Source: Verrucomicrobium sp. GAS474 (GTDB taxonomy: Bacteria; Verrucomicrobiota; Verrucomicrobiia; Methylacidiphilales; GAS474). From it: DNA of 64,000 nucleotides. The translations under genes were made by a program, and so were the position numbers. The stretch lies in the NCBI RefSeq assembly GCF_900105685.1, contig NZ_LT629781.1, positions 3,286,001 to 3,350,000 of the forward strand, given 5' to 3'. Shown here piece after piece: positions 30,176 through 53,078 of this stretch (the first letter of the stretch is position 1; every line of letters starts with the position of its first letter). The notes under the pieces are model-generated. The model was not told where the DNA came from and did no database searches. It saw nothing but the letters and a program-made list of their open reading frames with translations.

Positions 30176-30970
30176 TTAGGTGTTGTTCATCGCGTGGACG
30201 ATGTCGCCGGTGAGGGTGTCCTCGGCGGTGGTGAGCTTCTGGCTGGCCTCGTAGGCGCGGACGACGTTGACGAGGCTGACCATCTCGCTGACCGAGTTGG
30301 CGTTGGAGCTTTCGAGCGCGCCCTGCATCACGGCGCTGTCCTTGCCCAGGCCGGACTTGAAGGCGGTGGGGGGGGCCTCGCTGCTGGCGACGAAGCGGCC
30401 GTTGGGAGCGCCGAGGGAGAGGACGGTCCGGGGATCGTCGAAGTGGGCGAAGGTGAGGCTGCCGATCTTGACGCTCTTCGCGCCGTCGTCGGCCCGGATG
30501 ACGCCGTTCGGGTCGACCTTGACCTTGACCGAGTCCTTCGCGGCGATCGTGATCGGGGCATCCCCTTCGCCGAGGACGGTGGCGCCGTCGAGGGTCACCA
30601 TCTTCCCCTCGTTCGTGAGGTGGAACTGGCCGTCCCGGGTGTAGGAAGTGGAGCCGTCCTGTTCGCGGACCTTGAAGAAGCCGTCGCCGACAATGCCGAA
30701 ATCGTAATCGGCGCCGGTCCGGGCGACCTCGGCGGGGGTGAAATCGGTGACGGTGCGGGCCTGGAGCGGGGCGGCCTTCATGCCGAGGCGGCGGATGGTG
30801 CCGGGGATGTTGCCCCCCTTCTGGAGGTCGGAATCCTTCGGGATCTCGAAGGCGACCATCGTCCGCTTGTTGCCGGGCATGCTCATGCGGGCCAGGTTGG
30901 AGGAAATCGTCTCCTGCTGGATCGCCTGCGACTTCATCCCGCTGACTGCTTCGTAAAGGCCGATTTCCAT
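30176..30970 (-). CDS. flgF: Proximal rod protein FlgF
   Basis: A 264-aa rod protein with MEIGLYEAVSGMKSQAIQQE at the N-terminus and SVSEMVSLVNVVRAYEASQK at the C-terminus. Lower similarity to the rod consensus than FlgG (no canonical NNxANxNTxGF; SSNLARMSMPGNK instead) and position upstream of flgG support FlgF. It is the first gene of the flgF-csrA block. The ATG at 30970 begins exactly at the family's conserved N-terminal helix, which fixes the start and makes the very short distance to the promoter at 30985-31000 meaningful. Confidence 0.88.
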   Translation of the reverse strand: MEIGLYEAVSGMKSQAIQQETISSNLARMSMPGNKRTMVAFEIPKDSDLQKGGNIPGTIRRLGMKAAPLQARTVTDFTPAEVARTGADYDFGIVGDGFFKVREQDGSTSYTRDGQFHLTNEGKMVTLDGATVLGEGDAPITIAAKDSVKVKVDPNGVIRADDGAKSVKIGSLTFAHFDDPRTVLSLGAPNGRFVASSEAPPTAFKSGLGKDSAVMQGALESSNANSVSEMVSLVNVVRAYEASQKLTTAEDTLTGDIVHAMNNT

Positions 30971-30984
30971 CTTGCCTCATACTT

Positions 30985-31000
30985 CGCACGCCTTGTGCCA
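30985..31000 (-). promoter_or_regulatory. Candidate sigma-54 (-24/-12) promoter for the flgF-csrA block
   Basis: Minus-strand TGGCACAAGGCGTGCG. The GG and GC doublets are separated by exactly 10 nt, as sigma-54 requires, and TGGCAC matches the -24 consensus fully. From the GC to the ATG there are 15 nt, so the predicted start site is near 30974, giving a leader of about 4 nt. Confidence 0.65.
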
Positions 31001-31072
31001 AGTCCCCTGCCCGGGATCGAGAACGGCTATTTTATCCCCTCCCCGAAGGGCTCATAAGAGAGGAAGGCTCGG

Positions 31073-31084
31073 TTTTCTCCGATT
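31073..31084 (-). promoter_or_regulatory. Possible activator-binding motif upstream of flgF
   Basis: Minus-strand AATCGGAGAAAA, about 75-85 bp upstream of the -24 element. It resembles the two direct repeats upstream of flgB (53165-53211). It is also one arm of an inverted repeat (CTCCGA/TCGGAG, 31078-31095). Enhancer function is inferred from similarity and distance only. Confidence 0.3.
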
Positions 31085-31108
31085 CTTTTCGGAGGACCGG
31101 CAGGAAAG

Positions 31109-31132
31109 TCCCTTTTGGAAAGGGATTTTTTT
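31109..31132. terminator. Hairpin terminator downstream of the mot module
   Basis: Stem TCCCTTT / AAAGGGA with a 3-nt loop (31109-31125), followed on the plus strand by seven Ts and on the minus strand by CTTTCC. It starts 21 nt downstream of the stop of the leftward 128-aa gene and upstream of the flgF promoter, so it probably separates the fliA-mot module from the flgF block. The strong T-run favours rightward termination, so efficiency for the leftward transcript is uncertain. Confidence 0.5.
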
Positions 31133-31145
31133 GCCGCTTTTTTGC

Positions 31146-31532
31146 CTAGGAGGGCAAATTGGGCGCGGAAGATTTTTCCTCCGCCTTGGCCTTGTCGGCC
31201 GACTCGCAGCGGATGAGATACTGCTCCCCGCAGGAGCAGGAAAAGTGGACTTCAAAGACGCCGGGAGCGGTCTCCAGGACCTCGACCTTCGGCGGCGCTT
31301 TCTGCTTCACGATGGCAACGACGGCGGTCGCCGGCTTCGGGGCGGGGGCACCCGGCTTCAGCCCGGGCTTGGCACCCGGCAGCGGAGGCTTACCCGGAAC
31401 TCCGGGGGCTCCGGCCTTCACGACGCCGACGGGGGAAGCGCCCGCGGCGGGAGCCCCGGCAGGCGCGGCTGAGGGAGCGGAAGGCTTCCGGATCTGGATC
31501 CGGGTCTTGTCGTCGGGATTGAGAAAGCTCAT
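31146..31532 (-). CDS. Pro/Ala-rich protein with a small Cys motif, coupled to motB
   Basis: A 128-aa protein. The middle (about residues 18-80) is Pro/Ala/Gly/Lys-rich and probably disordered. The C-terminal part has a compact beta-like segment with CSCG and a further Cys (C99, C101, C109), suggesting metal binding or a redox site. Its start overlaps the motB stop (ATGA, 31529-31532), so it is translated with the stator genes. No known family is recognised. A cytoplasmic stator accessory is conceivable but unproven. Confidence 0.65.
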   Translation of the reverse strand: MSFLNPDDKTRIQIRKPSAPSAAPAGAPAAGASPVGVVKAGAPGVPGKPPLPGAKPGLKPGAPAPKPATAVVAIVKQKAPPKVEVLETAPGVFEVHFSCSCGEQYLIRCESADKAKAEEKSSAPNLPS

Positions 31533-32287
31533 GGAGATTGGGATTCCTTCATTTTCTGACGGAAACTGTCGGGATCTTCACCCGCCCCCGGACGCAAGAC
31601 AATCGCAATCCGCCGGTTGTCCTCGGAACCGGGGTTGGCCGGGTCGATCGGATCGGAGGAGCCCTTCCCCGCGATGCGGAAGAACTGGGAGGCCTTCACC
31701 CCGCTGTCGCCGAGGGCCTGCTCCGAGGAGACGGCCCGCTGGGTCGAGGTCTCCCACCCCTTGATATTGTCGGCGTTCCCCTCGCTACGCTCGGCGTGGC
31801 CCTCGACCTCCACCTGGACGGGGAGCCGCTCGATCTGCCAACCGATCGTCTGGAGGACGAACTGGCCGAAGGCGGTGAGGTTGGGGGAGTTCGGCTCGAA
31901 GAACGGCTTCTTCGCCTTGTCGATCATCGTGATGCGGACGCCGTCGGCGGTGTAGTCGAAGCGGATCTGGTCGTCGCCCACCTCGCTGCTGTTGCTCAGC
32001 TGCTTCCGGATCTCCTCGACGGCCTGCTGGAGCGGATTGATCGAGACCATCTCCTTGCTGGCGTGGTCCTGTGGGACCTGCTTGTACTCGTGCGTCACTT
32101 CCTTCGCGAGGATCGCCTTCTGGCCCGCGTGGATGTTCGTCTTCTTGCCTTGGAAATAGTCCTCGATGGCGCGCTTCGTCTCCTCGTCGGCGCCCATGAT
32201 CCAGAGGCACAGGAAGAGCGCGAACATCGACGTCATGAAGTCCGCGTAGGCGACCTTCCAACTTCCGCCTCCGTGTCCGCCGCCCAT
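31529..32287 (-). CDS. motB: Flagellar stator protein MotB
   Basis: A 252-aa protein. The single N-terminal TM begins WKVAYADFMTSMFALFLCLW, with the ion-binding Asp at D16. The C-terminal OmpA-like peptidoglycan-binding domain (about 115-245) contains VQVEVEGHAERSEGNADNIK and GSSDPIDPANPGSEDNRRIA. It forms the stator with MotA, encoded 34 nt upstream. Coupling ion (H+ versus Na+) cannot be decided reliably from sequence by eye. Confidence 0.93.
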   Translation of the reverse strand: MGGGHGGGSWKVAYADFMTSMFALFLCLWIMGADEETKRAIEDYFQGKKTNIHAGQKAILAKEVTHEYKQVPQDHASKEMVSINPLQQAVEEIRKQLSNSSEVGDDQIRFDYTADGVRITMIDKAKKPFFEPNSPNLTAFGQFVLQTIGWQIERLPVQVEVEGHAERSEGNADNIKGWETSTQRAVSSEQALGDSGVKASQFFRIAGKGSSDPIDPANPGSEDNRRIAIVLRPGAGEDPDSFRQKMKESQSP

Positions 32288-32321
32288 AGTCGTGACTTCT
32301 GGTCCTGGCTAGCCACCGGGG

Positions 32322-33185
32322 CTAGGCGGGCCGCTTGAGGGATTTGAGTTCGGTCTCGAACGCGTCGCTCACGGGCTGACGGTCGGGGGGAATCGCCTTG
32401 CGGCCCGATTCGGCGGCCATGATCGGCGGGGAACCGTTGGCGTAGCTGACGATCATGTTGCACATGACCTGGTAATAGGCGATCTCGTCCTCGTTGATGA
32501 ACTCGATCTTCACGATGAGCGGCTGCATCAGGCCGTAGCTGAGCAGGAGGCCGAGGAAGGTGCCGACGAGCGCCGAGGCGACCTTCTCGCCGATGACCGC
32601 CTTTTCACCCGAGAGGAAGCCCATGGTGACGACGATGCCGAGAACGGCGGCGACGATGCCGACGCCGGGGAGCGCGTCCGAGACCTTGTTGAGAATGATG
32701 AGCGGCCCCTGCTGGTGGTGGTGGATCTTCTGCACTTCCTCGGTGAGGGAGACGCGGAGCTGTTCCGGCTTCATGCGGCCTTCGATGAGGGGCCGAAGGG
32801 CGTCCTGGAGGAAGGCGATGGCGTGGTGGTCGGCGAGGAAGGCGGGATACTTCGAGAAGATCGGGCTCGAGGCCGGATTGACGACGTGTTCCTCGATGCC
32901 GACGACGCCCTGCTCGCGCGCGATCATGAAGAGCTCGTACAACCCCTTGCAGAGATCGAGATACCGTTCCTGCGGATAGGGTACGGCCCCCGTCGCCTGC
33001 TTCATCTTCGCGAGCGTCGCCTTGAGGACCGAACCGGGGCTGCCGCCGACGAGGTAGCCGACGCCGACGCCGATGATGATGAACCATTCGCCCGGGTGGA
33101 GCAGGGACTCCATGTGGCCCCCGTTGTACAGGAAGCCGCCGAAAACCGAGCCGAACACGATACCCCAACCAGCAAGCAACAACAT
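32322..33185 (-). CDS. motA: Flagellar stator protein MotA
   Basis: A 287-aa protein with four TM segments: two near the N-terminus (about 3-20 and 33-50) and two near 195-245. The conserved segment NKVSDALPGVGIVAAVLGIV carries the TM3 proline, and KVASALVGTFLGLLLSYG lies at TM4. The cytoplasmic loop contains the torque-generating charged region. It lies between fliA and motB in one transcript. Confidence 0.94.
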   Translation of the reverse strand: MLLLAGWGIVFGSVFGGFLYNGGHMESLLHPGEWFIIIGVGVGYLVGGSPGSVLKATLAKMKQATGAVPYPQERYLDLCKGLYELFMIAREQGVVGIEEHVVNPASSPIFSKYPAFLADHHAIAFLQDALRPLIEGRMKPEQLRVSLTEEVQKIHHHQQGPLIILNKVSDALPGVGIVAAVLGIVVTMGFLSGEKAVIGEKVASALVGTFLGLLLSYGLMQPLIVKIEFINEDEIAYYQVMCNMIVSYANGSPPIMAAESGRKAIPPDRQPVSDAFETELKSLKRPA

Positions 33186-33207
33186 AGGTGTCCTTTTCTC
33201 TGTGGGG

Positions 33208-33993
33208 TTACCGCTTCCGCTCCTTCAGGAAGGTCGAACGGAGCCGGGTGATCGCCAGCGTATGCACCTGGGAGACACGGGATTCCGTGATATTCAGGAT
33301 CTCGGCGATGTCTTTGAGGCGAAGGTTTTCCATGTAATACAGCGTCAGGACATGGAGCTGCTGCACGGGCAGTTTTTCCATTGTCATGCGTAAAATGGCT
33401 TTATCCTCCTCATTTAGCAAGCTCGCAAATGGGGTCAAAGAAGTGGGATCGGCGACAACGTCCTCGTGGGAGAGAGAGTCGCCCTCCTCGCTGTTGAAGA
33501 CCGGTTCCTGGAGGGAAAAATAGGAGACGGGACGGATCCGGTCGAGCATCTCGAGGAGGTCCTTGACGCTCATCCCCATTTCCTTCGCCAGCTCGTCCTC
33601 CGTCGGCTCCCGGCCGAGGCGCTGGGCGGCGGCGTCCTGGGCGGCCTCGAGGGTCCGGGCATCCTTGTGGACCGAGCGGGGGACCCAGTCGAGGCGGCGG
33701 AGCTCGTCGAGGATCTGGCCCCGGATGCGGAAGGTGCAATAGGTCTTCAGCGTCGTCCCGCGGGAGGGATCGTAGCGGTCGACGGCGTCGAGGAGGCCCA
33801 TGACGCCCGCGCTGATGAGGTCGTCCTGCGCGATGTGGGGCGGCAGGTAGAGCCCCATCCGGGCGACGACGAAGTTCACCATCGGCAGGAGGGACCGGAT
33901 CAGCGTGTCGCGCTCCTCCTCGGTCCGCTTCACGGGCGGCGGGGGCGGCGGCACGACCGCCCGGCGGGGAAGAGGAGAGGGTTGCGGGTCCAT
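33208..33993 (-). CDS. fliA: Flagellar sigma factor FliA (sigma-28)
   Basis: A 261-aa sigma-70-family factor. Region 2 contains YLPPHIAQDDLISAGVMGLL and YCTFRIRGQILDELRRLDWV. Region 3 (LGREPTEDELAKEMGMSVKD) follows, then region 4 (LRLKDIAEILNITESRVSQV) with its helix-turn-helix, in the FliA/WhiG pattern. It directs late flagellar genes such as flagellin and chemotaxis genes. No anti-sigma flgM is visible in the window, so control of FliA may differ from the enteric scheme or flgM lies elsewhere. Confidence 0.94.
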   Translation of the reverse strand: MDPQPSPLPRRAVVPPPPPPVKRTEEERDTLIRSLLPMVNFVVARMGLYLPPHIAQDDLISAGVMGLLDAVDRYDPSRGTTLKTYCTFRIRGQILDELRRLDWVPRSVHKDARTLEAAQDAAAQRLGREPTEDELAKEMGMSVKDLLEMLDRIRPVSYFSLQEPVFNSEEGDSLSHEDVVADPTSLTPFASLLNEEDKAILRMTMEKLPVQQLHVLTLYYMENLRLKDIAEILNITESRVSQVHTLAITRLRSTFLKERKR

Positions 33994-34018
33994 GGAAATT
34001 CGGGAAAAAATCGAGGGA

Positions 34019-34330
34019 CTAGGCTTTCTTCTGCTCGTCCTTCTTGTCTTCCTTCATCAATTCCTCGGCCTTCCGCTTGGCCTCTTCCCGCTCGTTGGCG
34101 GCCTGCTCGAGCTTTCCTTCCATCCAGGCGCGGATGAATTTCACGATGACGAACTTGACCCCCGCGGCGGCGAAGCAGCCGAAGAGCGCGGCGAAAAGGA
34201 GCGAATAGGGAAGCGATTCCCGGTTGGTGTAGCACAGGAGGAGCCCGACCAGCATGCCCAGCAAACCGGCGACGACGACGACCTTGTTGATCATCGGCGG
34301 GAGTTTGGTCTCGGTCAGAATTTTGAACAT
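34019..34330 (-). CDS. Small two-TM membrane protein between flhA and fliA
   Basis: A 103-aa protein with two hydrophobic segments (about 15-34 and 41-65) and a highly charged helical C-terminal tail (about 70-103, Lys/Glu-rich, e.g. REEAKRKAEELMKEDKKDEQ). It precedes fliA by 25 nt, in the position where Bacillus-type clusters carry flhF and flhG. It has no similarity that I recognise to those GTPases/ATPases. A membrane scaffold or regulator of export or fliA expression is possible; this is inference from position only. Confidence 0.6.
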   Translation of the reverse strand: MFKILTETKLPPMINKVVVVAGLLGMLVGLLLCYTNRESLPYSLLFAALFGCFAAAGVKFVIVKFIRAWMEGKLEQAANEREEAKRKAEELMKEDKKDEQKKA

Positions 34331-34387
34331 GTCGGTATCTCCCCTTTCCTTTGCTTATCTCAGTCGGTTGCGGCTGGCAATTCCCCG

Positions 34388-34405
34388 TTTTACAAACATG
34401 TAAAA
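34388..34405. promoter_or_regulatory. AT-rich dyad between flhA and the two-TM gene
   Basis: Exact inverted repeat TTTTACA-AACA-TGTAAAA, 14 nt from the flhA stop. It may be an operator or mark the promoter of the 103-aa/fliA/mot module, whose 88-bp leader region this is. No clear -24/-12 pair accompanies it. Confidence 0.35.
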
Positions 34406-34418
34406 AGTGCCATCGCTT

Positions 34419-36503
34419 TTAGATCGGCGCCGTCGCCGCATAGTTCGGGATGGCGTAGGCCGGCTGGACGTCGTACTTCGACGGAATCTCGTTGTAGGCC
34501 GCGATCTGGAGGAGCGGGAAGCTCTCGGCGAAGAACCGCTTCAGCCCCAGGCGGACGAGGGGGGAGCAGAGGAGGACCGGGTTGCGGCCCTGGCGGGAGA
34601 GTTCCTTGCTGCCGCGCTGGAGATGCTCGTGGAGGTGGCGGGCCATGCCGGGATCGAGGACGAGGGAGATGTCCTGCTGCGACTGGCGGACCCCCTTGGC
34701 GACGTATTGCTCGAGCTCCGGGACCATCGTGATGCAGAGGAGCTTGTTCTCCTGGATCTCGAGGTGGCGGCAGATCTCGAGGCTCAGGACCTTGCGGCAG
34801 GCCTCGACGATCTCGTCGGGGTTCTTCGTGTAGCCGACCTGGTCGCAGAGCTTTTCGAGGATGACGGGGAGTTCCCGGATCGAGATCCCCTCGCGGAGCA
34901 GCCCCTGGAGGACGCGGTGGATCAGGCCGACGTTGATCTGGAGGAGCTTGATTTCGGCGAGGAGGGCGACGTGGGTCTCCTTGATCGTGTCGAGGAGGTT
35001 CTGGGTGTCCTGCCGGGTGAAGATGTCGGCGGCGTGGCGGCGGAGGGTCTCGCTGACGTGGGTGATGAGGACCGAGAGCGGATCGACGACGGCGTAGCCG
35101 AGGCGCTCCGCCTCGCGCCGCTCCGCCTCGACGATCCAGGTGGCGGGGAGGCCGAAGGCCGGTTCCTTCGTCGCGCGGCCCCGGAGCGGCTTCTGCGAGG
35201 TCCCGACGCCCATGGCGAGGAACTGGCCGAGGTAGAGGTCGCCCGAGGCGACGTCGTGGCCGCGGAGGAGGAACGAATACTGGTGGGAGGGAAGGCTCGG
35301 GTTGTCGCGCACCGCGATGGAGGGGACGATGATACCGAGGTCCTGGGAGAGGCTCCGCCGCAGGACGCTGAGGCGGTCGAGCATCCCCTTCACGTTGCCG
35401 TTGACGAGGGGGAGGAGGTCGAGGCCGATCTCGAGGGCAAGGGGGTCGAGCTTCAGGATCGTCTCGGGGCGCTGTTCTCGGTCCCGGGCTTCCTTGTCTT
35501 TCTGCTCCTTCGACTTCAGCTCCTGCTGGAGCTTCTCCGCCTCGACCTTGTTCTTCGGCAGGAAGTAGGAGATGCCGAAGAGGACCACCCCGATGCCCAG
35601 CATCGAGACGGTGGGGAAGCCGGGGACGAGGGCGAGGACGCAGAGGGCGACCCCCGTCGTGATCATGACCTTGCCGCTGGCGAAGAGCTGCTTGGAGAAG
35701 TCCTCCCCGAGGGCCGAGCCCGAGCTGGAACGGGTGACGAGGATACCGGCGGCGACCGAGGTGATCAGGGCCGGGATCTGGGTGACGAGGCCGTCGCCGA
35801 TACTGAGGAGGGAGAACTTGTGAATCGATTCCTCGACGCTGTAGCCCTTCTGCAGCACGCCGATGGCGAAGCCGCCGATCAGGTTGACGAGGGTGATGAT
35901 GATCCCGGCGATGGCGTCGCCGCTGACGAACTTGCTGGCGCCGTCCATCGCGCCGTAGAAGCTCGCCTCCCGCTGGATGCCCTGGCGGCGGTCCCGGGCC
36001 TCCTTCTCGGAGATGATCCCGGCGTTGAGGTCGGCATCGATCGCCATCTGCTTGCCCGGCATCGCGTCCAGGGTGAACCGGGCCGAGACCTCGGCGACGC
36101 GGCCCGCGCCCTTCGTGATGACCATGAAGTTGATGATCGTCAGGATGATGAAGACGACGATCCCGACGACGGCGTTCCCCGAGACGCCGAACTCGCCGAA
36201 GGCCGTGATCAGATGGCCCGCGTCGGCATTGACCAGGATCGAGCGGGTCGTCGCCACGTTCAGGCCGAGACGGAAGAGGGTCGTGAAGAGGAGGACGGTG
36301 GGGAAGACGAAGAACTCGGTCGGGTCCTTCAGGTTCGCCACCGTGAGGATGATGAGGATCGAGAGCGTCATGCTCATCACCAGGAAGAGGTCGATGAACG
36401 CGGGCGAGATCGGCAGCACCAGGATCAGGACGATCCCGAGGAGCGCGACGCTGAAGATGCCGCTTCCGCCCCGGATGAATCGGCTGATGAGGGTGGCGTT
36501 CAT
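34419..36503 (-). CDS. flhA: Flagellar export gate protein FlhA
   Basis: A 694-aa protein, normal length. The first ~330 residues hold about eight TM segments, with the FHIPEP-region signature (NATTRSILVNADAGHLITAF-like, VATTRSILVNADAGHLITAF) and the conserved MPGKQMAIDADLNAGIISEK cytoplasmic loop. The C-terminal cytosolic domain (about 360-694) docks export chaperones. It is the last gene of the fliL-to-flhA run. Confidence 0.96.
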   Translation of the reverse strand: MNATLISRFIRGGSGIFSVALLGIVLILVLPISPAFIDLFLVMSMTLSILIILTVANLKDPTEFFVFPTVLLFTTLFRLGLNVATTRSILVNADAGHLITAFGEFGVSGNAVVGIVVFIILTIINFMVITKGAGRVAEVSARFTLDAMPGKQMAIDADLNAGIISEKEARDRRQGIQREASFYGAMDGASKFVSGDAIAGIIITLVNLIGGFAIGVLQKGYSVEESIHKFSLLSIGDGLVTQIPALITSVAAGILVTRSSSGSALGEDFSKQLFASGKVMITTGVALCVLALVPGFPTVSMLGIGVVLFGISYFLPKNKVEAEKLQQELKSKEQKDKEARDREQRPETILKLDPLALEIGLDLLPLVNGNVKGMLDRLSVLRRSLSQDLGIIVPSIAVRDNPSLPSHQYSFLLRGHDVASGDLYLGQFLAMGVGTSQKPLRGRATKEPAFGLPATWIVEAERREAERLGYAVVDPLSVLITHVSETLRRHAADIFTRQDTQNLLDTIKETHVALLAEIKLLQINVGLIHRVLQGLLREGISIRELPVILEKLCDQVGYTKNPDEIVEACRKVLSLEICRHLEIQENKLLCITMVPELEQYVAKGVRQSQQDISLVLDPGMARHLHEHLQRGSKELSRQGRNPVLLCSPLVRLGLKRFFAESFPLLQIAAYNEIPSKYDVQPAYAIPNYAATAPI

Positions 36504-36518
36504 GACAACAATGGCAAA

Positions 36519-37613
36519 TTACTTGAGCCCGTCCCGCTGCTCGTTTTCGGCGAGCATGGCCCGGTACCCGCGACGGTAGAGATCGGCGAGGATTTGTGCA
36601 ACTGCCTGGAAGTAGAGGGGCGGAATCACCTCACCGACCTCGGCGTGCTTGTAGAGGCCCCGCGCCAGGGAGACGTTCTCCATCGTCGGGATGCCGAGCC
36701 GGGCCGCCTCGGCCTTGATCGCCTGGGCGTTCCGCCGGACGCCCTTGGCGAGGACGACCGGGGCGTCGTTCTCCCCGCGGACGTAGCGGAGGGCGACGGC
36801 GTAATGGGTCGGGTTCGTCACGACGATCGTCGCGTTGGTCATGTCCTCCAGCTGGCGGCGGAGGGAGCGGATCTTCCGCATCATCCCGCGCTGGCGGCTC
36901 TTCACCTCGTTGGAACCTTCGGACTGGCGGACTTCGTCCTTCAGTTCCTGGAGGGACATCTTGTTGTCCTTCTCGTATTGCCAGCGCTGGTAGAGGTAAT
37001 CGACCGTCGCCAGGATCAGGAGGGCGACGAGGATCCGCCAGCCGACGGCCCAGGCCGCCTGCTGGAAGAAGGCCCCGAGCTGGGAGACGTTGACCGGCCC
37101 GAGGAAGACGGGGGAGTTCCACAGTTCCCGCACCGCCGCGTAGGCGAAGGCGACGATGATGATGAGCTTCAGGATCGCCAGCCCGGAGGCGACGAGGCGG
37201 CGGAGGGAAAAGATCGTCTTCACCCCGTTCACCGGATTGAGACGGCTCATCCCCTGCTCGATCTGGAACGGGACGATGATCGGGCCGGTCTGGACGAGGT
37301 TCGCCAGGATCGCCGCCAGGACGACGGCGGCGCAGAAGAGCATGAGGGCCATGACGGGCGTCCCCGTCAGCATGGGGCGGATGATCCCGGAGACCGTCTC
37401 CTGCCCGGCGGGCTTCCCCGCCTCCTGGAAGCACTGCTCCATGAACTGGGCGAAGCCGATCCCCATCCGGCTCCCGAAGTACATCAGCCCGAAGAGGGTC
37501 ACCCCGATCACGACGGTGGTGACGATGTCGGGGCTGCGGACGACCGACCCCTTGCCGCGGAGTTCCTTCCGCTTCTTCGCTGACGCTGGTAGGGGTTTGT
37601 TCTCGTCCGCCAT
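36519..37613 (-). CDS. flhB: Flagellar export switch protein FlhB
   Basis: A 364-aa protein with four TM segments in the first ~215 residues, then a cytoplasmic domain carrying the autocleavage site N267-P-T-H in IVVTNPTHYAVALRY. Autocleavage there switches export specificity from rod/hook to filament substrates. Preceded by fliR and followed by flhA with a 15-nt gap. Confidence 0.96.
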   Translation of the reverse strand: MADENKPLPASAKKRKELRGKGSVVRSPDIVTTVVIGVTLFGLMYFGSRMGIGFAQFMEQCFQEAGKPAGQETVSGIIRPMLTGTPVMALMLFCAAVVLAAILANLVQTGPIIVPFQIEQGMSRLNPVNGVKTIFSLRRLVASGLAILKLIIIVAFAYAAVRELWNSPVFLGPVNVSQLGAFFQQAAWAVGWRILVALLILATVDYLYQRWQYEKDNKMSLQELKDEVRQSEGSNEVKSRQRGMMRKIRSLRRQLEDMTNATIVVTNPTHYAVALRYVRGENDAPVVLAKGVRRNAQAIKAEAARLGIPTMENVSLARGLYKHAEVGEVIPPLYFQAVAQILADLYRRGYRAMLAENEQRDGLK

Positions 37614-37630
37614 GGTGGGTTACCTCGTGG

Positions 37631-38398
37631 TTAGGGGAGGGCGAATTTGAAGTACCGGGACGACATTGGGAGGATCTGCTCCATCTCGATCCGCATGAGG
37701 AGGAACAGGAGGGGAAGGAAGACGACGACCCCGGCGAGGCCGATGACGATCCGCAGGACGAAGCTTTCCGAGAACAGGCTCAACCCCTGGACGGTGCGGG
37801 CGAGGAAGCCGACCGAGATCGTGACGAAGAACATCAGCGCCATGATCGGCGCGGCGATGGTCAGCCCCCCGACGAAGAGGGCCCCGGAGAGCTTCACCAG
37901 CAGCCCGATGTCGAAGAGGGCCCCGCCGATCGCCCCGACGGGGACGAGGACGAAGCTTTCCTTCAGCGCGAAGAGGACGACCCGGAAGTAATCGAAGAGC
38001 CAGAAGTAGAGGACCGAGAGGAGGAGGAAGAGGCGGCTGAAGATGCCGCCGCTGAGGGGGACGAAGGGATTGACCTGCTGCGCGTAGAGGTAGCCGAGCT
38101 CGCTGTCGATCAGGACGCCGCCGAACTGGACCGCCGAGAAGATCAGCCGGAGCATCAGCCCGTAGCCGGCCCCGATGACGAACTCCCCCATGAGGGCGAT
38201 CCCGAGGTCGGGCAGGGAGCCGAGGGGCGCCTCGATCGGCCCGATGAGGGGAAGGAGGAGGTAGCTGAGCCAGAGGATCAGCGCGGCGCGGGTCAGCTGG
38301 GGGGTGTTGATCTCGGTGAAGCCGGGGCTCAGCAGCATCCATCCCGAAAGGCGCGAGGCGACGAGCCACAGGGCGATGGGATCGATGAAGAGATGCAT
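37631..38398 (-). CDS. fliR: Flagellar export gate protein FliR
   Basis: A 255-aa polytopic protein with about six TM segments, including LVIGAGYGLMLRLIFSAVQF-like sequence (EFVIGAGYGLMLRLIFSAVQ) that is typical of FliR. It forms the FliPQR export channel. Located between fliQ and flhB. Confidence 0.93.
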   Translation of the reverse strand: MHLFIDPIALWLVASRLSGWMLLSPGFTEINTPQLTRAALILWLSYLLLPLIGPIEAPLGSLPDLGIALMGEFVIGAGYGLMLRLIFSAVQFGGVLIDSELGYLYAQQVNPFVPLSGGIFSRLFLLLSVLYFWLFDYFRVVLFALKESFVLVPVGAIGGALFDIGLLVKLSGALFVGGLTIAAPIMALMFFVTISVGFLARTVQGLSLFSESFVLRIVIGLAGVVVFLPLLFLLMRIEMEQILPMSSRYFKFALP

Positions 38399-38417
38399 GA
38401 TTCCCCTTCCCTTCCCC

Positions 38418-38696: not shown

Positions 38697-38706
38697 ACGC
38701 TTGATC

Positions 38707-39959: not shown

Positions 39960-39981
39960 TTGGGATTGGGGCGTCCGTCCT

Positions 39982-40236: not shown

Positions 40237-40260
40237 AGTGTGTGTGAGGGTGCTCGGGAA

Positions 40261-41325: not shown

Positions 41326-41329
41326 CGAG

Positions 41330-42985: not shown

Positions 42986-43043
42986 ATAATTATATCCTCG
43001 GTTGGGGTTGGCTGGGTTGCTTGCGTTATGCGGTGCTTTGAAA

Positions 43044-43487: not shown

Positions 43488-43535
43488 GGTGTTTGGATTC
43501 CGGTTACCGGTGTGCTGGTTTTCCTTGGGGTTGGA

Positions 43536-43952: not shown

Positions 43953-43975
43953 AAGGGTGGATGGGGTGGGTTGGA

Positions 43976-45808: not shown

Positions 45809-45824
45809 GAGGTACTCCGGATGG

Positions 45825-46457
45825 TTAGGGGGCGTTGGAACCCGATCCATCGGAAGTACTGTCCTTCGTCGTCCTGACGAGGTCGTTGGTGATCTGCGCG
45901 ACGATCGCCTTGTCTCCGGGATATTTGCTCACCCAGAGGCTCAGCAGCTTGGCCTGGACTTTCCTGTCCATGGCCGAAGTCGACAAAATTTTTGTGACCT
46001 GCTCCGAGGGGAGCGCCCGCATGAGGTCGATGGCGCTGTCGGGCTTCATCGTCTTGTAGAGGCCGGCCAGCTCCTCGAGGCGCGGGGCCTCGCTCTCCCG
46101 GATCTTGATGAGGCGGGATTCCATGTCCTTCTGGACCTGGGCGAGGCGGTCCTTTTCCTTGTCGAGGGCCTCCCGCTCCGCGCGGATGATCTCCTCGCGG
46201 CGGGCCAGCTCGGCGTCGAGGGAGAGCGATTTTTCGTTCTTCTCGTTGAGGTCGCGCCTCCAGGAGTCGAGCTCCGAGGCGACCTTCGAGACATCCTCGA
46301 AGGTCTTCGGCACGGTCGGCGTCGAGTCGGCGAAGCTGACGTGCTTCGCATGGGGCCACGCGGGAAGCTTCACCTTGGAGAGGCTGATGAAGACCCCCCC
46401 GAGGATGCCGAAGATCATGCCCAAACCGGCGGCGATGGAGATAATGACAGGTGCCAT
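45825..46457 (-). CDS. MotE/YlxF-like membrane protein (MgtE N-domain fold)
   Basis: A 210-aa protein with an N-terminal TM (about 3-24, VIISIAAGLGMIFGILGGVF). A long coiled coil follows (about 60-140), then a helical segment resembling the MgtE intracellular N domain (YKTMKPDSAIDLMRALPSEQ, then VTKILSTSAMDRKVQAKLLS). Sinorhizobium MotE and Bacillus YlxF share this architecture and this position between fliJ and fliK. A role in stator (MotC) stability or export is known for MotE; by analogy only here. Confidence 0.78.
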   Translation of the reverse strand: MAPVIISIAAGLGMIFGILGGVFISLSKVKLPAWPHAKHVSFADSTPTVPKTFEDVSKVASELDSWRRDLNEKNEKSLSLDAELARREEIIRAEREALDKEKDRLAQVQKDMESRLIKIRESEAPRLEELAGLYKTMKPDSAIDLMRALPSEQVTKILSTSAMDRKVQAKLLSLWVSKYPGDKAIVAQITNDLVRTTKDSTSDGSGSNAP

Positions 46458-46469
46458 GATGAAATTTCC

Positions 46470-46952
46470 TTACTCGATTCCGGCCGTTTCCCGGGCTTCG
46501 GCGGCCTCGGCCATCGCGCGCTGGGTGAATTGGTTCTGGGCCGCCTCGTCGTTCTCCCGGCGCTCGATCCGCTCGAGCTCGGCGAGGTCGTCGGCGCGGC
46601 GGCGCTCGAGGACCCGGGCGATCATGTCGGCATGGGCCTTCGCCTTCAGCGTCGCCTCGACCTGCTCGCGGCGGGCGAACTGGGCGAGGCCGAGGTGGCG
46701 GAGGTCGAGGTTGTGCTGGATCCCCGCCTCGCGGATGCAGACGTCGCGGCGGGCATACTCGTAGACCTTCATCTCCGTCGTGCCGTGGGAGAAATTGTCC
46801 TGCAGCGCCGCAAGAGAGCCCTCGCAGACGGCCTGCTGGGCCAGCTCCTCGCGCTGGCGCTCCATGAGCTTCACCTCTTCCTGCTCCAGGGCATATTCCC
46901 GGAGGCGATGGAGGATCTCCAGCGGGCGGTGTTGGGGGTTTTTGGAGCTCAT
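46470..46952 (-). CDS. fliJ: Flagellar export protein FliJ
   Basis: A 160-aa, nearly all-helical coiled-coil protein with FliJ-like features (LHRLREYALEQEEVKLMERQ at the N-terminus). FliJ is a poorly conserved antiparallel coiled coil that sits in the FliI hexamer. Identification rests on size, coiled-coil content and its place 9 nt after fliI. Confidence 0.82.
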   Translation of the reverse strand: MSSKNPQHRPLEILHRLREYALEQEEVKLMERQREELAQQAVCEGSLAALQDNFSHGTTEMKVYEYARRDVCIREAGIQHNLDLRHLGLAQFARREQVEATLKAKAHADMIARVLERRRADDLAELERIERRENDEAAQNQFTQRAMAEAAEARETAGIE

Positions 46953-46961
46953 GGCTTAACC

Positions 46962-48305
46962 TTATGCGGCCCGCTGGCCGAGGATCTGGCCGAGGAGGCT
47001 GAACGATTCCTCGACCGTGCAGGAATCCTCGACCCGCTGGCGGAGGAACTGGACGAGGCGGGGATAGACCGCGAGGGCGTGGTCGAGGTTCGTGTTGCTG
47101 CCGGGCGTGTAGGCCCCGATCTCGACGAGTTCCCGATACTGCCGCTGGATCGAGAGGATCTGGCGGGCGCGGCTGACGAGGTCGCGCTGGTCCTCGGTGA
47201 TGAGGTTGCTCTGGAGACGGCTCAGGCTGTCGAGAACGTCGAGGGCGGGATAATGGTTCTCCGAGGCGAGGCGGCGGGTGAGGAGGAGGTGTCCGTCGAG
47301 GATCGAGCGGGCGCAATCGCTGACCGGATCGTTCCAGTCGTCGCCCTCGGTGAGGATCGTGTAGAAACCGGTGATGATCCCGTTGTCGAGGCAGCCCGCC
47401 TGCTCGAGGACGACGGGCATGAGGCCGAAGACCGAGGGGGGATAGCCGCGCGTCGCCGGGGGCTCCCCGACGGCGAGGCCGACTTCCCGCTGCGCCATGG
47501 CGAGGCGGGTCAGCGAGTCCATCATGAGGAGGACGTGCTTCCCCTGGGCGCGGAACCAGGCGGCGATGGTGTTCGCCGTGAAGGCGGCCTTGATCCGGGC
47601 CAGCGCGGGCTGGTCCGAGGTGGCGACGATGACGACGCTCCGCTTCAGGGCCTCGGGGCCGAGGTCGCGCTCGACGAATTCGAGGACTTCCCGGCCCCGC
47701 TCGCCGATGAGGGCGATGACGTTGATGTCGGCGTCGGCGTAGCGGCAGATCATCCCGAGGAGGGTGCTCTTGCCGACGCCCGAGCCGGCGAAGATGCCGA
47801 GGCGCTGCCCCGCGCCGGTCGTGGCGAAGGAATCGATGGCGCGGACGCCGGTGCGGAAGACGTTCTTGATCCGGGGACGCCGGGAGGGGGGCGGCACGTC
47901 CTTCACCAGCGGGGCGTAGACGGTGTTCGTCGGGAGCGGGCCGAGGTCGTCGATGGGACGTCCGAGGGGATCGATGATCCGGCCCAGGACGCCGTAGCCG
48001 ACGGGGATCTGGGGCGGCGCGCCGGTCGACTGGACGCTGTCGCCGACGCCGATCCCTTCGAGGCCCTCCCAGGGCATGAGGAGGAGCTTCCCGTCGCGGA
48101 ACCCGACGACCTCGGCCAGGCGGCGCTTGCGGGTCCCCTCGCAGTAGATCCAGCAGGCCTCGCCGAGGGAGGCGGGCGGTCCCTGCGACTCGACCGTCAG
48201 GCCGACGACCTTCGTCACCCGGCCCGCCACCCCGATGGGGCGCACCTGCCCCAACGCACGCGAGGTGCGGGCGACGGCGCCGGAGAAGGAGGTGGGCTTG
48301 GGCAT
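46962..48305 (-). CDS. fliI: Flagellum-specific export ATPase FliI
   Basis: A 447-aa F1-beta-like ATPase with Walker A GSGVGKST (174-181), LIGERGREVLEFVERDLG and a Walker B around VLLMMDSLTRLAMAQREVGL. The N-terminal beta domain and C-terminal helical part are present. It unfolds and delivers export substrates with FliH and FliJ. The ATG at 48305 starts MPKPTSFSG; upstream in-frame codons belong to the overlapping shadow of fliH. Confidence 0.96.
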   Translation of the reverse strand: MPKPTSFSGAVARTSRALGQVRPIGVAGRVTKVVGLTVESQGPPASLGEACWIYCEGTRKRRLAEVVGFRDGKLLLMPWEGLEGIGVGDSVQSTGAPPQIPVGYGVLGRIIDPLGRPIDDLGPLPTNTVYAPLVKDVPPPSRRPRIKNVFRTGVRAIDSFATTGAGQRLGIFAGSGVGKSTLLGMICRYADADINVIALIGERGREVLEFVERDLGPEALKRSVVIVATSDQPALARIKAAFTANTIAAWFRAQGKHVLLMMDSLTRLAMAQREVGLAVGEPPATRGYPPSVFGLMPVVLEQAGCLDNGIITGFYTILTEGDDWNDPVSDCARSILDGHLLLTRRLASENHYPALDVLDSLSRLQSNLITEDQRDLVSRARQILSIQRQYRELVEIGAYTPGSNTNLDHALAVYPRLVQFLRQRVEDSCTVEESFSLLGQILGQRAA

Positions 48306-48325
48306 GCGGTTGGCTTTAGAATGGG

Positions 48326-48946
48326 TTAGCTGTCGAGTCCCGTGCGGATCTGGGAGAGCTTCGAGTGGCGGCGGCCGTCGACCACGCCGAGGTCGGTGTG
48401 GATCATGTACTCGCCCCGGGCGAGGTCGGCGTTCCCCTTCCACTGGATCCGACCGCTGTGGATCGAGAGGTCGAGTTTCTCGACCCGCGCCTGGAGCGTG
48501 GCGAGGGCGTCGGGGGCGATCTCGATCGTGATCGACTGGGCCTGGTGGACCTCGCCGAGGAGGGCGGCGACTTCGCGCCCCATTTCCTCCTGGGTGAAAT
48601 CGTGCTCGCGGAAGACCCGTCCCAGCGCCGCCATGAGGAGGTCGGGGAGATGGCCCTCGGCGGTGCGGATCAATTCCTGGAGGACGTTGTCCATCTGGGC
48701 GAGGACGGCCTGGAGGGCGCGGGCGTCGGCCTGCCGCGCCGCCTCGGTTTCCCGGAGCGCCATGAGGCGTCCGGCGCGGACGCCGGCCTCGTAGGAGCCG
48801 TCGTAGAGGGTCTCGTAGATCGGCGACTCGTCGGCCGCCCTCCCCTCCCCTTCCACCGGCTCGACGGCGATCACCGGGATCGGCCGCAGGCGGCGAACCT
48901 TGATGCAATCGACCGAAAACGGGACGGTGACCTGGAAGGTGTTCAT
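48326..48946 (-). CDS. fliH: FliH-like export regulator
   Basis: A 206-aa protein with Arg/Glu/Ala-rich helices in the middle and a C-terminal vacuolar-ATPase-E-like domain (FTQEEMGREVAALLGEVHQA, then LSIHSGRIQWKGNADLARGE, ending in the FliH-type acidic-to-Gly turn). FliH dimers bind FliI and tether it to FliN. It lies between fliG and fliI. Confidence 0.82.
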   Translation of the reverse strand: MNTFQVTVPFSVDCIKVRRLRPIPVIAVEPVEGEGRAADESPIYETLYDGSYEAGVRAGRLMALRETEAARQADARALQAVLAQMDNVLQELIRTAEGHLPDLLMAALGRVFREHDFTQEEMGREVAALLGEVHQAQSITIEIAPDALATLQARVEKLDLSIHSGRIQWKGNADLARGEYMIHTDLGVVDGRRHSKLSQIRTGLDS

Positions 48947-48974
48947 GGAAGGGCGTTACGTTGATTGACGCGCG

Positions 48975-50060
48975 TCAGACGAGTTCGTTGCGGCCGCCGC
49001 CGCCCTTGCTGACGGTGATTTCGCCGTTCGACTCGAGTTCGCGGACGACCTCGATGATCTTTTCCTGCGCTTCCTCGACGTCGGTGAGGCGGACGGGAGG
49101 CATGTATTGGATTTCTTCCTGGAGACCCTCGGCGGCGCGCTTCGAGAGGCTGTTGAGGACCGCCGACTTGAGGCGCTCGGAGGCCGTCTTGAGGGCCACG
49201 GCGAGCTGGTGGTAATCGACCTCGCGGAGGATGCGGGCCATGGTCTGCTTGTCCATGTCGCCGATGTCCTCGAAGACGAAGAGGAGTTTCTGGATGTTCT
49301 TCGCCAGGTCGGGGTTCCGCTCCTCGAGGCCGGTGAGGACCTGCTTCGAGATCGAGTCCTCCAGCGCGTTGATGACCTCCGCGAGGATGCGGGCGCCGCC
49401 GGAGCTGGTGACGGAAAGGGTGTTCTTCAGCGCGACGCGGCGCTTGATGTGGTTGAGGATCTGCTCGACGACCTCGGAGGAGGTCGGCTCCATCGTGGCG
49501 ATCCGCTCGACGATGTCGGTGCGGAGGTCGGCGCTGATGAGGGAGAGGACCTCGGCGCAGCGGGCGGGATCGAGGTAGGAAAGGACGAGGGCCCAGGTCT
49601 GGATCTGCTCCTTGCGGAGGAGGTTGATCAGCTGGCGGGGCTGGATGTCGCGGAGGACGGTGATGTCGACGTTGCGGGCCTTGTTCGGCGCGATGCGGTT
49701 GATCAGCTCGTTGGCCTTGAAGCTGCCGATGGAACGCTCCAGCACGTCCTTGGCGAACTGGGGGCCGCCCGCCGCCGAGGCGACGGCGTCGACCGCGACG
49801 CCGGTGAATTCCTTGAGGAGCGCCTTCTGCGTCTCGACGGGGACGAAGTCGATCCGGGCCATTTCGGTCGTGACTTCCTCGACGTCGCGCTCGTCGAAAT
49901 CGTTGAGGATCTGCGCGGCGATGTCCTTGCCGAGGACGACGAGGAGGGCGGCGAGGCGCTGCTTCTTCGACCACCCGCGCAGGGGATCGACGACTTCGTT
50001 TGCGCCCGGCTTGCCGGGAACGGCGAGGGCTTTTGTCGGGGTTTCAGCGGCGGCGGCCAT
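48975..50060 (-). CDS. fliG: Flagellar motor switch protein FliG
   Basis: A 361-aa protein with the three ARM-like domains of FliG. The C-terminal torque segment FVFEDIGDMDKQTMARILRE, then VDYHQLAVALKTASERLKSA, holds the charged residues that meet MotA. An N-terminal Ala/Lys-rich extension of about 25 residues precedes the FliF-binding domain. Located between fliF and fliH. Confidence 0.95.
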   Translation of the reverse strand: MAAAAETPTKALAVPGKPGANEVVDPLRGWSKKQRLAALLVVLGKDIAAQILNDFDERDVEEVTTEMARIDFVPVETQKALLKEFTGVAVDAVASAAGGPQFAKDVLERSIGSFKANELINRIAPNKARNVDITVLRDIQPRQLINLLRKEQIQTWALVLSYLDPARCAEVLSLISADLRTDIVERIATMEPTSSEVVEQILNHIKRRVALKNTLSVTSSGGARILAEVINALEDSISKQVLTGLEERNPDLAKNIQKLLFVFEDIGDMDKQTMARILREVDYHQLAVALKTASERLKSAVLNSLSKRAAEGLQEEIQYMPPVRLTDVEEAQEKIIEVVRELESNGEITVSKGGGGRNELV

Positions 50061-50092
50061 AATATTTTTCCTTTTTTGGAAACTCTATCGCA

Positions 50093-51694
50093 TCAGTTGC
50101 GCATCATCCAGACCTTGATTGCCTGGGAAGTATTGCCCGGATTGTCCCGGATCAGCTTGCCCAGCTCGTCGGCGGAGAGGGCGGAGGGGGCCACCCGCTG
50201 CTCGTCGGCCTCGGCGAGGGCGTCGTCGGCCATCTTCTTGTAGCGGTTCAGGATGCTGGAGAACTCCCCGGAGGTGTCGTTCTCGAAGCCGTTGGAGGTC
50301 TTCAGCATGCCGCGGAGGTAGAGGAGGACGAGGACCGCCAGGAGGATGAGGATGCCCTGGCTGACGTAGCTGAGCCACTCTTCCTTCAGGCCGAGGACGG
50401 TCTTGGCCGGCTCCATCGGGACTTCCTCGAACATCTGGGTGAACTCGGTCTCGTTGACCGAGACCATGTCCTTGCGGTCGCCCGTGTTCGTGTAGCCGAT
50501 GGCCTGCTGCACCATCTCGGTCAGCTTCTGGATTTCCTGGGGCGTCCGGGGCGTCACCGTCTGGGCCGCGCCGGTGCCGGTCTTGCGGACGTTGACGAAG
50601 ACGGCGGCGGTGAGCCGGACGGGAACCCCCATCGCCTTCGAGGTGCTCTGGACGACGCGGTTCATGTTGTAATGGTTCGCCTGGCTCTCCTTCGTGGCGT
50701 CGCTCTCGTTGGAGGTCTTGCCGGTGTCCTGGTTCTGCTCGGTGTTGGTCTTGGAGCCGACCGTGGCGTCGGTGCCGGAGGTCTTGCTGTGGGTCGACTC
50801 GTTGGAGATCGTCTCCTGGCTGATGACCTGGCTCTTCGGGTCGAACTGCTCCGAGGTCTGCTGGACGGCGTCGAAATTGAGGTCGGCCGAGATCTGGACC
50901 GAGGACTGGTTCATGCCGAGGGTCTGGTCGAGCATCACCTGGACCTTCTGGCGGAGGTAATCCTCGTAGGCCTTCTTCGCGGCCAGCTGCGTGTTGCTGA
51001 GCGCGCCGAGGCTGTTGCCCTCGTCGTTCTCGACGAGGGACTTCCCGGTCGAGTCGACGATGCTGACGTGGTTCGGCTGGAGGCCCTCGACGCTGTTCGC
51101 GACGAGGAACTGGATCGCCTTGATCTGGTTCGGCCCGAGGCTGCGGCCCGATTTGAGGAGGAGGAAGACGGAGGCCTTCGCCTCCTTCTGGTCCTTCTGG
51201 AAGAGGCGCTGCTCCGGGGTGACGATCATGACGCGGGCCTGCTCGACGTCGTCCATGTGGCGGATCGTCCGGGCGAGTTCGCCCTGGATGGCGCGGTTGT
51301 AGTTCGCCTTCTGCATGAAGTCGGGCATGCCGAAGCTCGGCTTGTCGAAGAGCTCGAAGCCGGAACCGCCCGCCGTGTCGTCGGCGCGGGGGATGCCCGA
51401 CTCGGCCAGGCCGAGGCGGAGGCCGTCGACCTCCGTGGAGGGGACGCGGACCGTGCGGCCCTGGTCGGCCAGCTCGTAGGGGACTTTCTTCTGCTTCAGG
51501 AAGTCGACGACCTTCGCCGCCTCGGTGATCTGCATGCCCCCGAAGAGGACGTCCATCTTCGGCTTGTTGGCCGAGTAGACGATGACGGTGGTCAACGCGA
51601 TGATCATGACCGCGGCGGCGATGAGGATCGGCATCCGGCGGTTGGCCGGGATCCCGGTCCAGACCTGCTGCACATTCTTGAAAAGTTCGTTCAT
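50093..51694 (-). CDS. fliF: MS-ring protein FliF
   Basis: A 533-aa protein with two TM segments (about 20-43, ILIAAAVMIIALTTVIVYSA; and about 440-465, ILILLAVLVLLYLRGM). The RBM domains lie between them, containing VDFLKQKKVPYELADQG and RAIQGELARTIRHMDDVEQA, characteristic of the YscJ/FliF family. The short cytoplasmic tail binds FliG. It forms the MS ring that nucleates the basal body. Confidence 0.96.
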   Translation of the reverse strand: MNELFKNVQQVWTGIPANRRMPILIAAAVMIIALTTVIVYSANKPKMDVLFGGMQITEAAKVVDFLKQKKVPYELADQGRTVRVPSTEVDGLRLGLAESGIPRADDTAGGSGFELFDKPSFGMPDFMQKANYNRAIQGELARTIRHMDDVEQARVMIVTPEQRLFQKDQKEAKASVFLLLKSGRSLGPNQIKAIQFLVANSVEGLQPNHVSIVDSTGKSLVENDEGNSLGALSNTQLAAKKAYEDYLRQKVQVMLDQTLGMNQSSVQISADLNFDAVQQTSEQFDPKSQVISQETISNESTHSKTSGTDATVGSKTNTEQNQDTGKTSNESDATKESQANHYNMNRVVQSTSKAMGVPVRLTAAVFVNVRKTGTGAAQTVTPRTPQEIQKLTEMVQQAIGYTNTGDRKDMVSVNETEFTQMFEEVPMEPAKTVLGLKEEWLSYVSQGILILLAVLVLLYLRGMLKTSNGFENDTSGEFSSILNRYKKMADDALAEADEQRVAPSALSADELGKLIRDNPGNTSQAIKVWMMRN

Positions 51695-51752
51695 TGAGGG
51701 GTTTCCTTACTCTTGACTCTGGGGCGTTGTCTCCTGGGCATCCTTGCGCTGC

Positions 51753-52190
51753 TCAAATCTGCATCCGCATCACTTCCTGGTAGGAATCGACGGCTTTGTT
51801 TCTCATCTCGGCCAAAAGCTTGAAGGCGACGCTCGACTCCTGCGAGGCGACCATCGCCTCGTCGAGGGTCGTCTTGCCGCCCATGAGGACGTCGCGGACC
51901 TTCTCGCCCGCCGAGGCCTGGTAATCGTTCACCGAGTTGATCATCTTCACGATCGTCCCGCCGCCGTCGGCGCTGGAGAGGCCGCTGGTCGACGTGCTGG
52001 GGGCGAAGGCGGAAACCGCGTCGGTCCCCTGCGCCGGGGTGGCCCCGCCGACCGGCTTCGGCAGCTCGAAGGAGAACGACATCCCGTTCCCCTGCTGGAT
52101 CATGTGATTCCCGACGACGTTCGGGGCGGCGGCACCGGTGCCGGAGGCGGCGGAGGTCACCGAGGAGAGGGCGGAAATGAAGTCGATCAT
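51753..52190 (-). CDS. fliE: MS-ring-rod junction protein FliE
   Basis: A 145-aa protein whose C-terminal ~75 residues carry the FliE pattern (VNDYQASAGEKVRDVLMGGK, then TTLDEAMVASQESSVAFKLL and VDSYQEVMRMQI). The Gly/Ser-rich N-terminus is longer than usual (FliE is typically about 105 aa). It connects the MS ring to the proximal rod and gates early export. It lies after flgC and before fliF. Confidence 0.92.
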   Translation of the reverse strand: MIDFISALSSVTSAASGTGAAAPNVVGNHMIQQGNGMSFSFELPKPVGGATPAQGTDAVSAFAPSTSTSGLSSADGGGTIVKMINSVNDYQASAGEKVRDVLMGGKTTLDEAMVASQESSVAFKLLAEMRNKAVDSYQEVMRMQI

Positions 52191-52203
52191 GGCCGGTTAT
52201 CTT

Positions 52204-52626
52204 TTACGCTTCGGCGATCTGCATCGCCTGGGTCACCATCTGGCGGGCGTTCTTGATCACCTCGAGGTTCGCCTCGTAGGCGCGGCTGGAGGTCATCATG
52301 TCGACCATCTCGTCGACGATGTTGACGTTCGGCATCTTCACGAAGCCCTTGGCGTCGGCGTGCGGATGGCCGGGCATGTAGATGTTCTGGAAAGGGGTCG
52401 GGTCGTCGACGATCTTGCCGATCTTGACGCCGGTCGCCTTGTTCCCCGCCGCCTGGGCCTGGTCGAGGACCGGGGCGAAGATGACTTCCTTGCGCCGGTA
52501 GGGCAGCCCGTCGGGGCCGCGCGTCGTCTGCGCGTTGGTGATGTTGGAGGCAACGATTTCGAGCCGCGTCCGCTCGGCCTGGAGGCCGGAGGAGCTGATG
52601 TCGATGGCGGGGATCAGATTGGCCAT
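52204..52626 (-). CDS. flgC: Proximal rod protein FlgC
   Basis: A 140-aa protein, normal size, with IDISSSGLQAERTRLEIVAS, NITNAQTTRGPDGLPYRRKE and the C-terminal MPNVNIVDEMVDMMTSSRAY. The pattern IxSSGLxAxRxRxxxxxxNIxNxxTTR is diagnostic. It polymerises with FlgB, FlgF and FliE in the proximal rod. 23 nt after flgB. Confidence 0.95.
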   Translation of the reverse strand: MANLIPAIDISSSGLQAERTRLEIVASNITNAQTTRGPDGLPYRRKEVIFAPVLDQAQAAGNKATGVKIGKIVDDPTPFQNIYMPGHPHADAKGFVKMPNVNIVDEMVDMMTSSRAYEANLEVIKNARQMVTQAMQIAEA

Positions 52627-52649
52627 GGTCGTTTCTCGTTAGCGTCGGG

Positions 52650-53048
52650 TTAGCTGGTCTTGCCGGTGATCGCGTCCTTGAGGGCCGAGTACTTCAGGGC
52701 CAGGAGCTTCGCGGAGAAGGAGTAATTCGCGCTGTTCTTCATCATCTCGGTCACTTCCTGATCGAGGTTCACCGTGTTCCCGTCGTAGCGGGCCGGGTTC
52801 TGGAGATCGGCGGTGTCGAAGGCGGCCTTCGGCGTCGCGGAGAGCGGGGAACCCTGGTCGAGGTTCTTCAGGGCGCTGTTCAGGTCGTTCTGGAAGGAAG
52901 TGGTGAGATCGACCCGCTTGTACCCGGGGGTATTGCTATTGACGATATTGCTCGCGAGCGCCACCTGACGCGCCGAGCTGGCCTGAAGGGTCAGCTTCAG
53001 GCTGGAAAGGGTGGGATCGTTGAAGATCTGTCCGACGCCGTCACTCAT
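52650..53048 (-). CDS. flgB: Proximal rod protein FlgB
   Basis: A 132-aa protein with SARQVALASNIVNSNTPGYK near the N-terminus and EVTEMMKNSANYSFSAKLLA near the C-terminus, canonical for FlgB. It is the first gene of the longest flagellar run. No alternative downstream start fits, because the frame's next codons are already the conserved family N-terminus. The ATG therefore lies only 15 nt from the putative sigma-54 -12 element and has no Shine-Dalgarno sequence. Confidence 0.94.
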   Translation of the reverse strand: MSDGVGQIFNDPTLSSLKLTLQASSARQVALASNIVNSNTPGYKRVDLTTSFQNDLNSALKNLDQGSPLSATPKAAFDTADLQNPARYDGNTVNLDQEVTEMMKNSANYSFSAKLLALKYSALKDAITGKTS

Positions 53049-53062
53049 GTTGCAGATTAGTT

Positions 53063-53078
53063 AGCAAACCTCATGCCA
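53063..53078 (-). promoter_or_regulatory. Candidate sigma-54 (-24/-12) promoter for the flgB block
   Basis: Minus-strand TGGCATGAGGTTTGCT. The GG and GC doublets are separated by exactly 10 nt and TTTGCT matches the -12 consensus; the -24 side is TGGCAT instead of TGGCAC. The predicted start is near 53052, giving a 4-nt leader before the ATG at 53048. Confidence 0.7.

Follow-up and report, generated by a model that had tools for sequence, protein, structure and literature searches.

How can the first gene of a flagellar operon be translated if its putative sigma-54 promoter stands so close to the start codon that almost no leader is left on the message? This question is raised by two loci in a stretch of 64,000 nt from Verrucomicrobium sp. 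GAS474 (contig NZ_LT629781.1, positions 3,286,001 to 3,350,000), which is called the window here and belongs to a genome of 3.76 Mb in one contig. The features concerned, numbered by position in the window, are as follows.

30176..30970, minus strand: flgF-type rod gene, 264 aa, heading flgF-flgG-flgA-flgH (Pfam, NCBIfam, ortholog alignment)
30971..30985, minus strand: flgF GC-to-ATG interval, 15 nt (sequence)
30985..31000, minus strand: sigma-54 -24/-12 element of flgF, TGGCACAAGGCGTGCG (read directly; kept in both congeners)
52650..53048, minus strand: flgB, 132 aa, heading flgB-flgC-fliE-fliF-fliG-... (TIGR01396, Pfam, ortholog alignment)
53049..53063, minus strand: flgB GC-to-ATG interval, 15 nt, TAACTAATCTGCAAC (sequence)
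53063..53078, minus strand: sigma-54 -24/-12 element of flgB, TGGCATGAGGTTTGCT (read directly; top-scoring site of the window; kept in relatives)

The gap between GG and GC is exactly 10 nt in both elements, and the distance from the GC to the start codon, hereafter N, is 15 nt for flgF (ATG at 30970) as well as for flgB (ATG at 53048). Both genes start with ATG, preceded by GCAAG or GCAAC. An earlier, sequence-only reading of the window had claimed these coordinates, spacings and bases, and all of them held exactly when the sequence was read. The flgB element is a full match to TGGCAC-N5-TTGCW (TGGCAT...TTGCT), and that of flgF is a partial one (TGGCAC...GTGCG), its -12 half being weak. A consensus scan of the window gave three sites with a score of 20 or more, versus 1.1 expected from a dinucleotide model. 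The flgB element has the highest score, 22, while that of flgF, calculated by hand with the same weights, reaches 19.5, just under the cut, because its -12 half reads GTGCG and not TTGCT. Therefore the window alone is no proof, and comparison with relatives is needed. Elsewhere in the window (21890-21920, minus strand) lies a sigma-54-like sequence, TGGAATGGGTCTTGC, conserved in the congener G002. The ATG 13 nt downstream of it opens an ORF of 24 codons only; the sequence also precedes, by about 110 nt, an ORF of 242 aa without Pfam match (21064-21792), whose leadered sigma-54 promoter it might possibly be.

Are the genes and their start codons correctly assigned? FlgB matches TIGR01396 above its cut-off, and Pfam agrees. 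FlgF matches TIGR03506 (FlgEFG subfamily) above and TIGR02490 (flgF) below the cut-off, and the gene order is flgF-flgG-flgA-flgH. The sequence-only reading had also held that neither start can be moved downstream. This is supported: the alignments of FlgB and FlgF with their orthologs in two congeners begin at residue 1, so that starts further downstream are unlikely. Upstream of the annotated starts, inspection of the sequence found no in-frame start codon for either gene. From flgB upstream to the next called ORF there is a gap of 199 nt, and 175 nt separate flgF from the upstream ORF on its strand, which follows fliA-motA-motB. A 128-aa ORF between motB and flgF (31146-31532, minus strand) matched no Pfam or NCBIfam family.

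Two relatives of the same genus, G002 and G001, were compared, in which FlgB is 78% and 58% and FlgF 70% and 51% identical to the proteins of the window. The element is kept upstream of all four genes at N=14-16: before flgF it reads TGGCACAAAGCGTGC in G002 (N=16) and TGGCATGAACTGTGC in G001 (N=15), and before flgB it stands at N=16 and N=14, respectively. It is to be noted that flgF of G002 has AGGGAG, which resembles a Shine-Dalgarno (SD) sequence, 5 nt before its ATG; only a longer message could use it.

Is the arrangement kept beyond the genus? FlgB was found in 43 of the 387 Verrucomicrobiota genomes searched. At 27 of 29 further flgB loci, whose start codons were chosen by the conserved N-terminus, the best sigma-54 match within 300 nt upstream has N=12-17. 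The exceptions are G164, with N=28, and G153, where no clear sigma-54 site was seen in the 300 nt upstream of flgB. If the window genome and the two congeners are added to the 27 short-spaced loci, N in these 30 genomes is 12 (13 genomes), 13 (4), 14 (4), 15 (5), 16 (3) or 17 (1), with a mode of 12. The start codon is ATG in 29 of the 30 and GTG in one, and five of the elements have GT in place of GC at -12. Most genomes of the set have no SD-like sequence at a usable distance before flgB, and still the short spacing is kept. A pyrimidine precedes the ATG in all 13 genes with N=12, which gives weak support only since 74% of ATG genes share it. In part of the flgB set (L279-L305) an AT-rich tract, ATTTTTAA, is found at a near-constant distance, about 45-55 nt upstream of the -24 element, and in some genomes it lies inside an imperfect inverted repeat. 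This tract could be an activator site, although no activator can be assigned to it. The window genome and G002 share AGCGTCTAAAATAAAAGTTTT, still further upstream of flgB than the tract.

The elements of flgF and flgB thus exceed chance, as the sequence-only reading had supposed, on the strength of conservation in relatives rather than of the window itself. That reading would have counted as refuted if related species had not kept the element and its distance to ATG. This did not happen: both congeners keep them for both genes, as do 27 of the 29 flgB loci. The matching distance of 15 nt, from which it had argued, holds in the window, but relatives do not keep this exact value: N is 14-16 in the congeners and 12-17 across the phylum. 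The conserved feature, as inferred from the distance at which sigma-54 starts RNA, would be a start codon at about +1 to +6.

Other flagellar genes share the arrangement. When 20 flagellar regions of the phylum, each covering about 20 kb downstream of flgB, were scanned, 39 correctly spaced sites had their nearest ORF-opening ATG at N=11-19, versus 3, 5, 1 and 2 sites in wrong-spacing controls of 8, 9, 11 and 12 nt; only the GG-N10-GC spacing is enriched before genes in these regions. Sites stand before fliK at N=13-16 (16 in most), before flhB at N=15-19 (but 29 in two), and before fliO and flgF at N=12. These gene names rest on one Pfam-checked representative each (three for fliK), the others being named by likeness of the N-terminus and by position. 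The same scan of flgF loci in other phyla (486 kb) gave one site at N=11-19 and 24 at N=20-59. Thus the short spacing is a property of Verrucomicrobiota and not of flagellar sigma-54 promoters generally; the sequence-only reading had called such promoters unusual, which holds against these flgF loci, while among the flagellar sigma-54 operons read within the phylum they are the rule. In G162 and G037, flgB and flgF have N=12 and flgD has a site at N=84-85; SD cores precede 14 of 26 and 13 of 27 genes, respectively. In G044 and G074, relatives of the order that lack flgB, short sites occur together with leadered ones. Raw genome-wide counts of the pattern in 144 Verrucomicrobiota genomes look enriched in several of them. 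They were not used as evidence, because in G041 and G068 the matches do not visibly gather at N=12 and resemble matches within coding sequence, and the excess in G123 is due to one repeated element: TGGCATGGAGTTTGCCAGCCATG occurs there at more than 50 places, evidently as a single element dispersed in many copies.

Does the genome possess the necessary machinery, and are other genes served by it? RpoN is present (PF04552, E 4.6e-58), and there are six strong matches to PF00158, the family of enhancer-binding activators. The three that were checked carry receiver domains of NtrC type; which of them serves the flagellum is not identified. The pattern TGGCAYN6TGC-N{4,34}-ATG has 32 matches in this genome versus 6 for the reversed-pattern control. 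Exactly N=12 is found in ten of them, and N=11-16 in 18, a range for which the control predicts about one. At N=12 the ATG in most cases begins a real ORF, and the families of these ORFs are unrelated: two are DUF892 proteins, four are a methyl-accepting chemotaxis, a DUF4142, an NMT1-like and a DUF748 protein, and two have no family. Orthologs of three of these genes keep N=12-16 in congeners. The scope is therefore broader than first claimed, since in the genus the arrangement extends to non-flagellar genes. A second class stands at N=22-33, where some of the starts are preceded by AGGAG, and the genus seems to carry near-leaderless sigma-54 genes beside leadered ones, as far as can be inferred without transcript data. 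As a separate observation, a 241-aa family without Pfam match has the element at exactly N=12 in each of the three species (L043:781-1503 in the window genome, L076 in G002, L083 in G001). With a pattern variant, TGGDAY, no clear peak emerged: 6 of its 20 matches in this genome stood at N=11-16, and one pair was conserved at N=12. The site shared by L062 and L096 was not counted as a promoter, because the coding sequence in which it is embedded, cysS-like by eye, is conserved in both species.

What would such spacing do to the message? Sigma-54 starts RNA about 12 nt after the GC of the -12 element. In Campylobacter jejuni the sigma-54 box lies 8-13 nt before mapped transcription starts (PMC3847290). 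From this distance it follows that N=12 would put the RNA start at the AUG or one base before it, and that N=15-16 would leave leaders of 3-5 nt. The predicted start is about 30974-30973 for flgF and about 53052-53051 for flgB; both messages would have leaders of about 3-4 nt, AAC and AAG or one nucleotide longer, in which there is no usable SD site. A GAGG does occur 4 nt before the flgF ATG, but it is upstream of the predicted RNA 5' end. Since no SD site fits in such a leader, translation of the first gene is expected to take the leaderless route, in which recognition of a 5'-terminal AUG depends on IF2 (see the summary in PMC10783764).

The proposed mechanism can be put as follows. RNA polymerase with RpoN, opened by an NtrC-type activator, would start RNA about 12 nt past the -12 GC, at the AUG or up to about 5 nt before it. 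The mRNA of the first gene would be leaderless or nearly so and would have no SD, and the later genes would be read as internal cistrons. This would be a conserved design of the flagellar sigma-54 operons of Verrucomicrobiota (flgB, fliK, flhB, fliO, flgF), and in the genus of the window it would also serve unrelated genes. Established by sequence are the -24/-12 elements, their distance from the start codon and its conservation, the presence of RpoN and activators, and the lack of room for an SD past the predicted start. That these are genuine promoters of the flgB and flgF operons, giving a near-leaderless first-gene mRNA throughout the phylum, is likely, with the 5' ends, the dependence on RpoN and an activator, and leaderless translation all being inferred. 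The claim that the mRNAs begin about 4 nt before ATG is supported to the same extent: it is inferred from the distance at which sigma-54 is known to start RNA, without a mapped 5' end, and a search found no mapped 5' ends or transcription start data for any member of the phylum. Against this explanation one may hold the weak -12 half of flgF and possible read-through from fliA-motA-motB into flgF, and likewise G164, G153, the GT at -12 in 5 of 30 flgB elements and the AGGGAG of G002.

The lineage makes little use of SD sequences and is permissive for starts without them. SD cores precede 66 of 379 sampled genes of the window genome, versus 19.6 expected, which is close to the 15% published for Methylacidiphilae; 10% is reported for Spartobacteria (PMC10783764). 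Permissiveness is not the whole story, because the SD-richer G162 and G037 keep flgB and flgF at N=12. The base before the ATG is C in 51% of ATG genes (own-genome sample plus window). TAnnnT boxes just upstream of ATG are mildly enriched (49 versus 30.7 expected), and leaderless sigma-70 genes might exist in this genome, although they are not shown.

Could the short leader be merely neutral? According to the rival that survives best, nothing keeps leaders long where SD use is low, and promoters drift towards start codons. The scarcity of SD cores in the window genome and the published figures speak for it. Against it, the distances are narrow across the phylum, and in G162 and G037 about half of the flagellar genes have SD, yet these genomes keep the short flgB and flgF spacings beside the long one of flgD. 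We consider neutral drift possible but less likely than not; it concerns why and not what: it accepts near-leaderless messages, and selection versus neutral shortening is undecided. An unlikely rival accepts the promoters as real but derives most of the FlgB and FlgF protein from longer messages, made from other promoters or by read-through, so that the short leader would have little physiological weight. The location of flgF 175 nt behind the ORF after fliA-motA-motB, and the AGGGAG upstream of the predicted start in G002, favour it; the 199-nt gap upstream of flgB does not, and most flgB genes lack a usable SD-like sequence while their short spacing is conserved nonetheless. These rivals and the preferred explanation are not mutually exclusive. 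Chance sequence near start codons, of which about 1.1 sites scoring 20 or more are expected in a window of such composition, is all but excluded by position and spacing conserved in 30 genomes and by wrongly spaced controls with almost no sites.

How does the preferred reading, near-leaderless sigma-54 messages, compare with known systems? With flagellar sigma-54 promoters of other phyla it shares the -24/-12 consensus, the 10-nt spacing, the gene class, and RpoN with NtrC-type activators; sites at their flgF loci, however, are mostly 20-59 nt or more before ATG, with room for a leader, whereas those of Verrucomicrobiota are at 12-17 nt. With the sigma-70-type leaderless mRNAs of C. jejuni, S. 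meliloti and Leptospira it shares a predicted RNA start at or a few nt from AUG and the absence of SD. In C. jejuni they stand behind TAnAaT sigma-70 boxes, and their conservation from one species to another is poor (PMC3847290), whereas in Verrucomicrobiota the promoter is of sigma-54 type and the arrangement is conserved across the phylum. In the sigma-54 regulon of Chlamydia trachomatis, a PVC relative, a few predicted promoters lie near the start codon (2, 16, 16 and 18 nt), but most of the listed distances are 28-248 nt, with no flagellar operon in the list and without clustering at one short distance (PMC7482065). The open-licence literature searched yielded no account of leaderless sigma-54 genes as a class in Verrucomicrobiota, which is weak evidence of novelty. 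What is new would be the combination of two known things, sigma-54 promoters and near-leaderless messages, the latter being inferred.

A bolder reading, which we favour only by a small margin, is that the phylum has a sigma-54 class with the start codon at +1 to +6, that its activator-gated flagellar operons are entered by leaderless translation, and that the genus has a regulon of leaderless beside leadered sigma-54 genes. If this is true, translational control, such as the balance of initiation factors or 70S initiation, could act on flagellar assembly. The preferred explanation itself, if true, would tie a form of bacterial transcription that is among the most tightly switched to a different mode of translation initiation, and it gives concrete and cheap predictions for many Verrucomicrobiota, together with a rule by which promoter and start-codon annotation may be fixed there.
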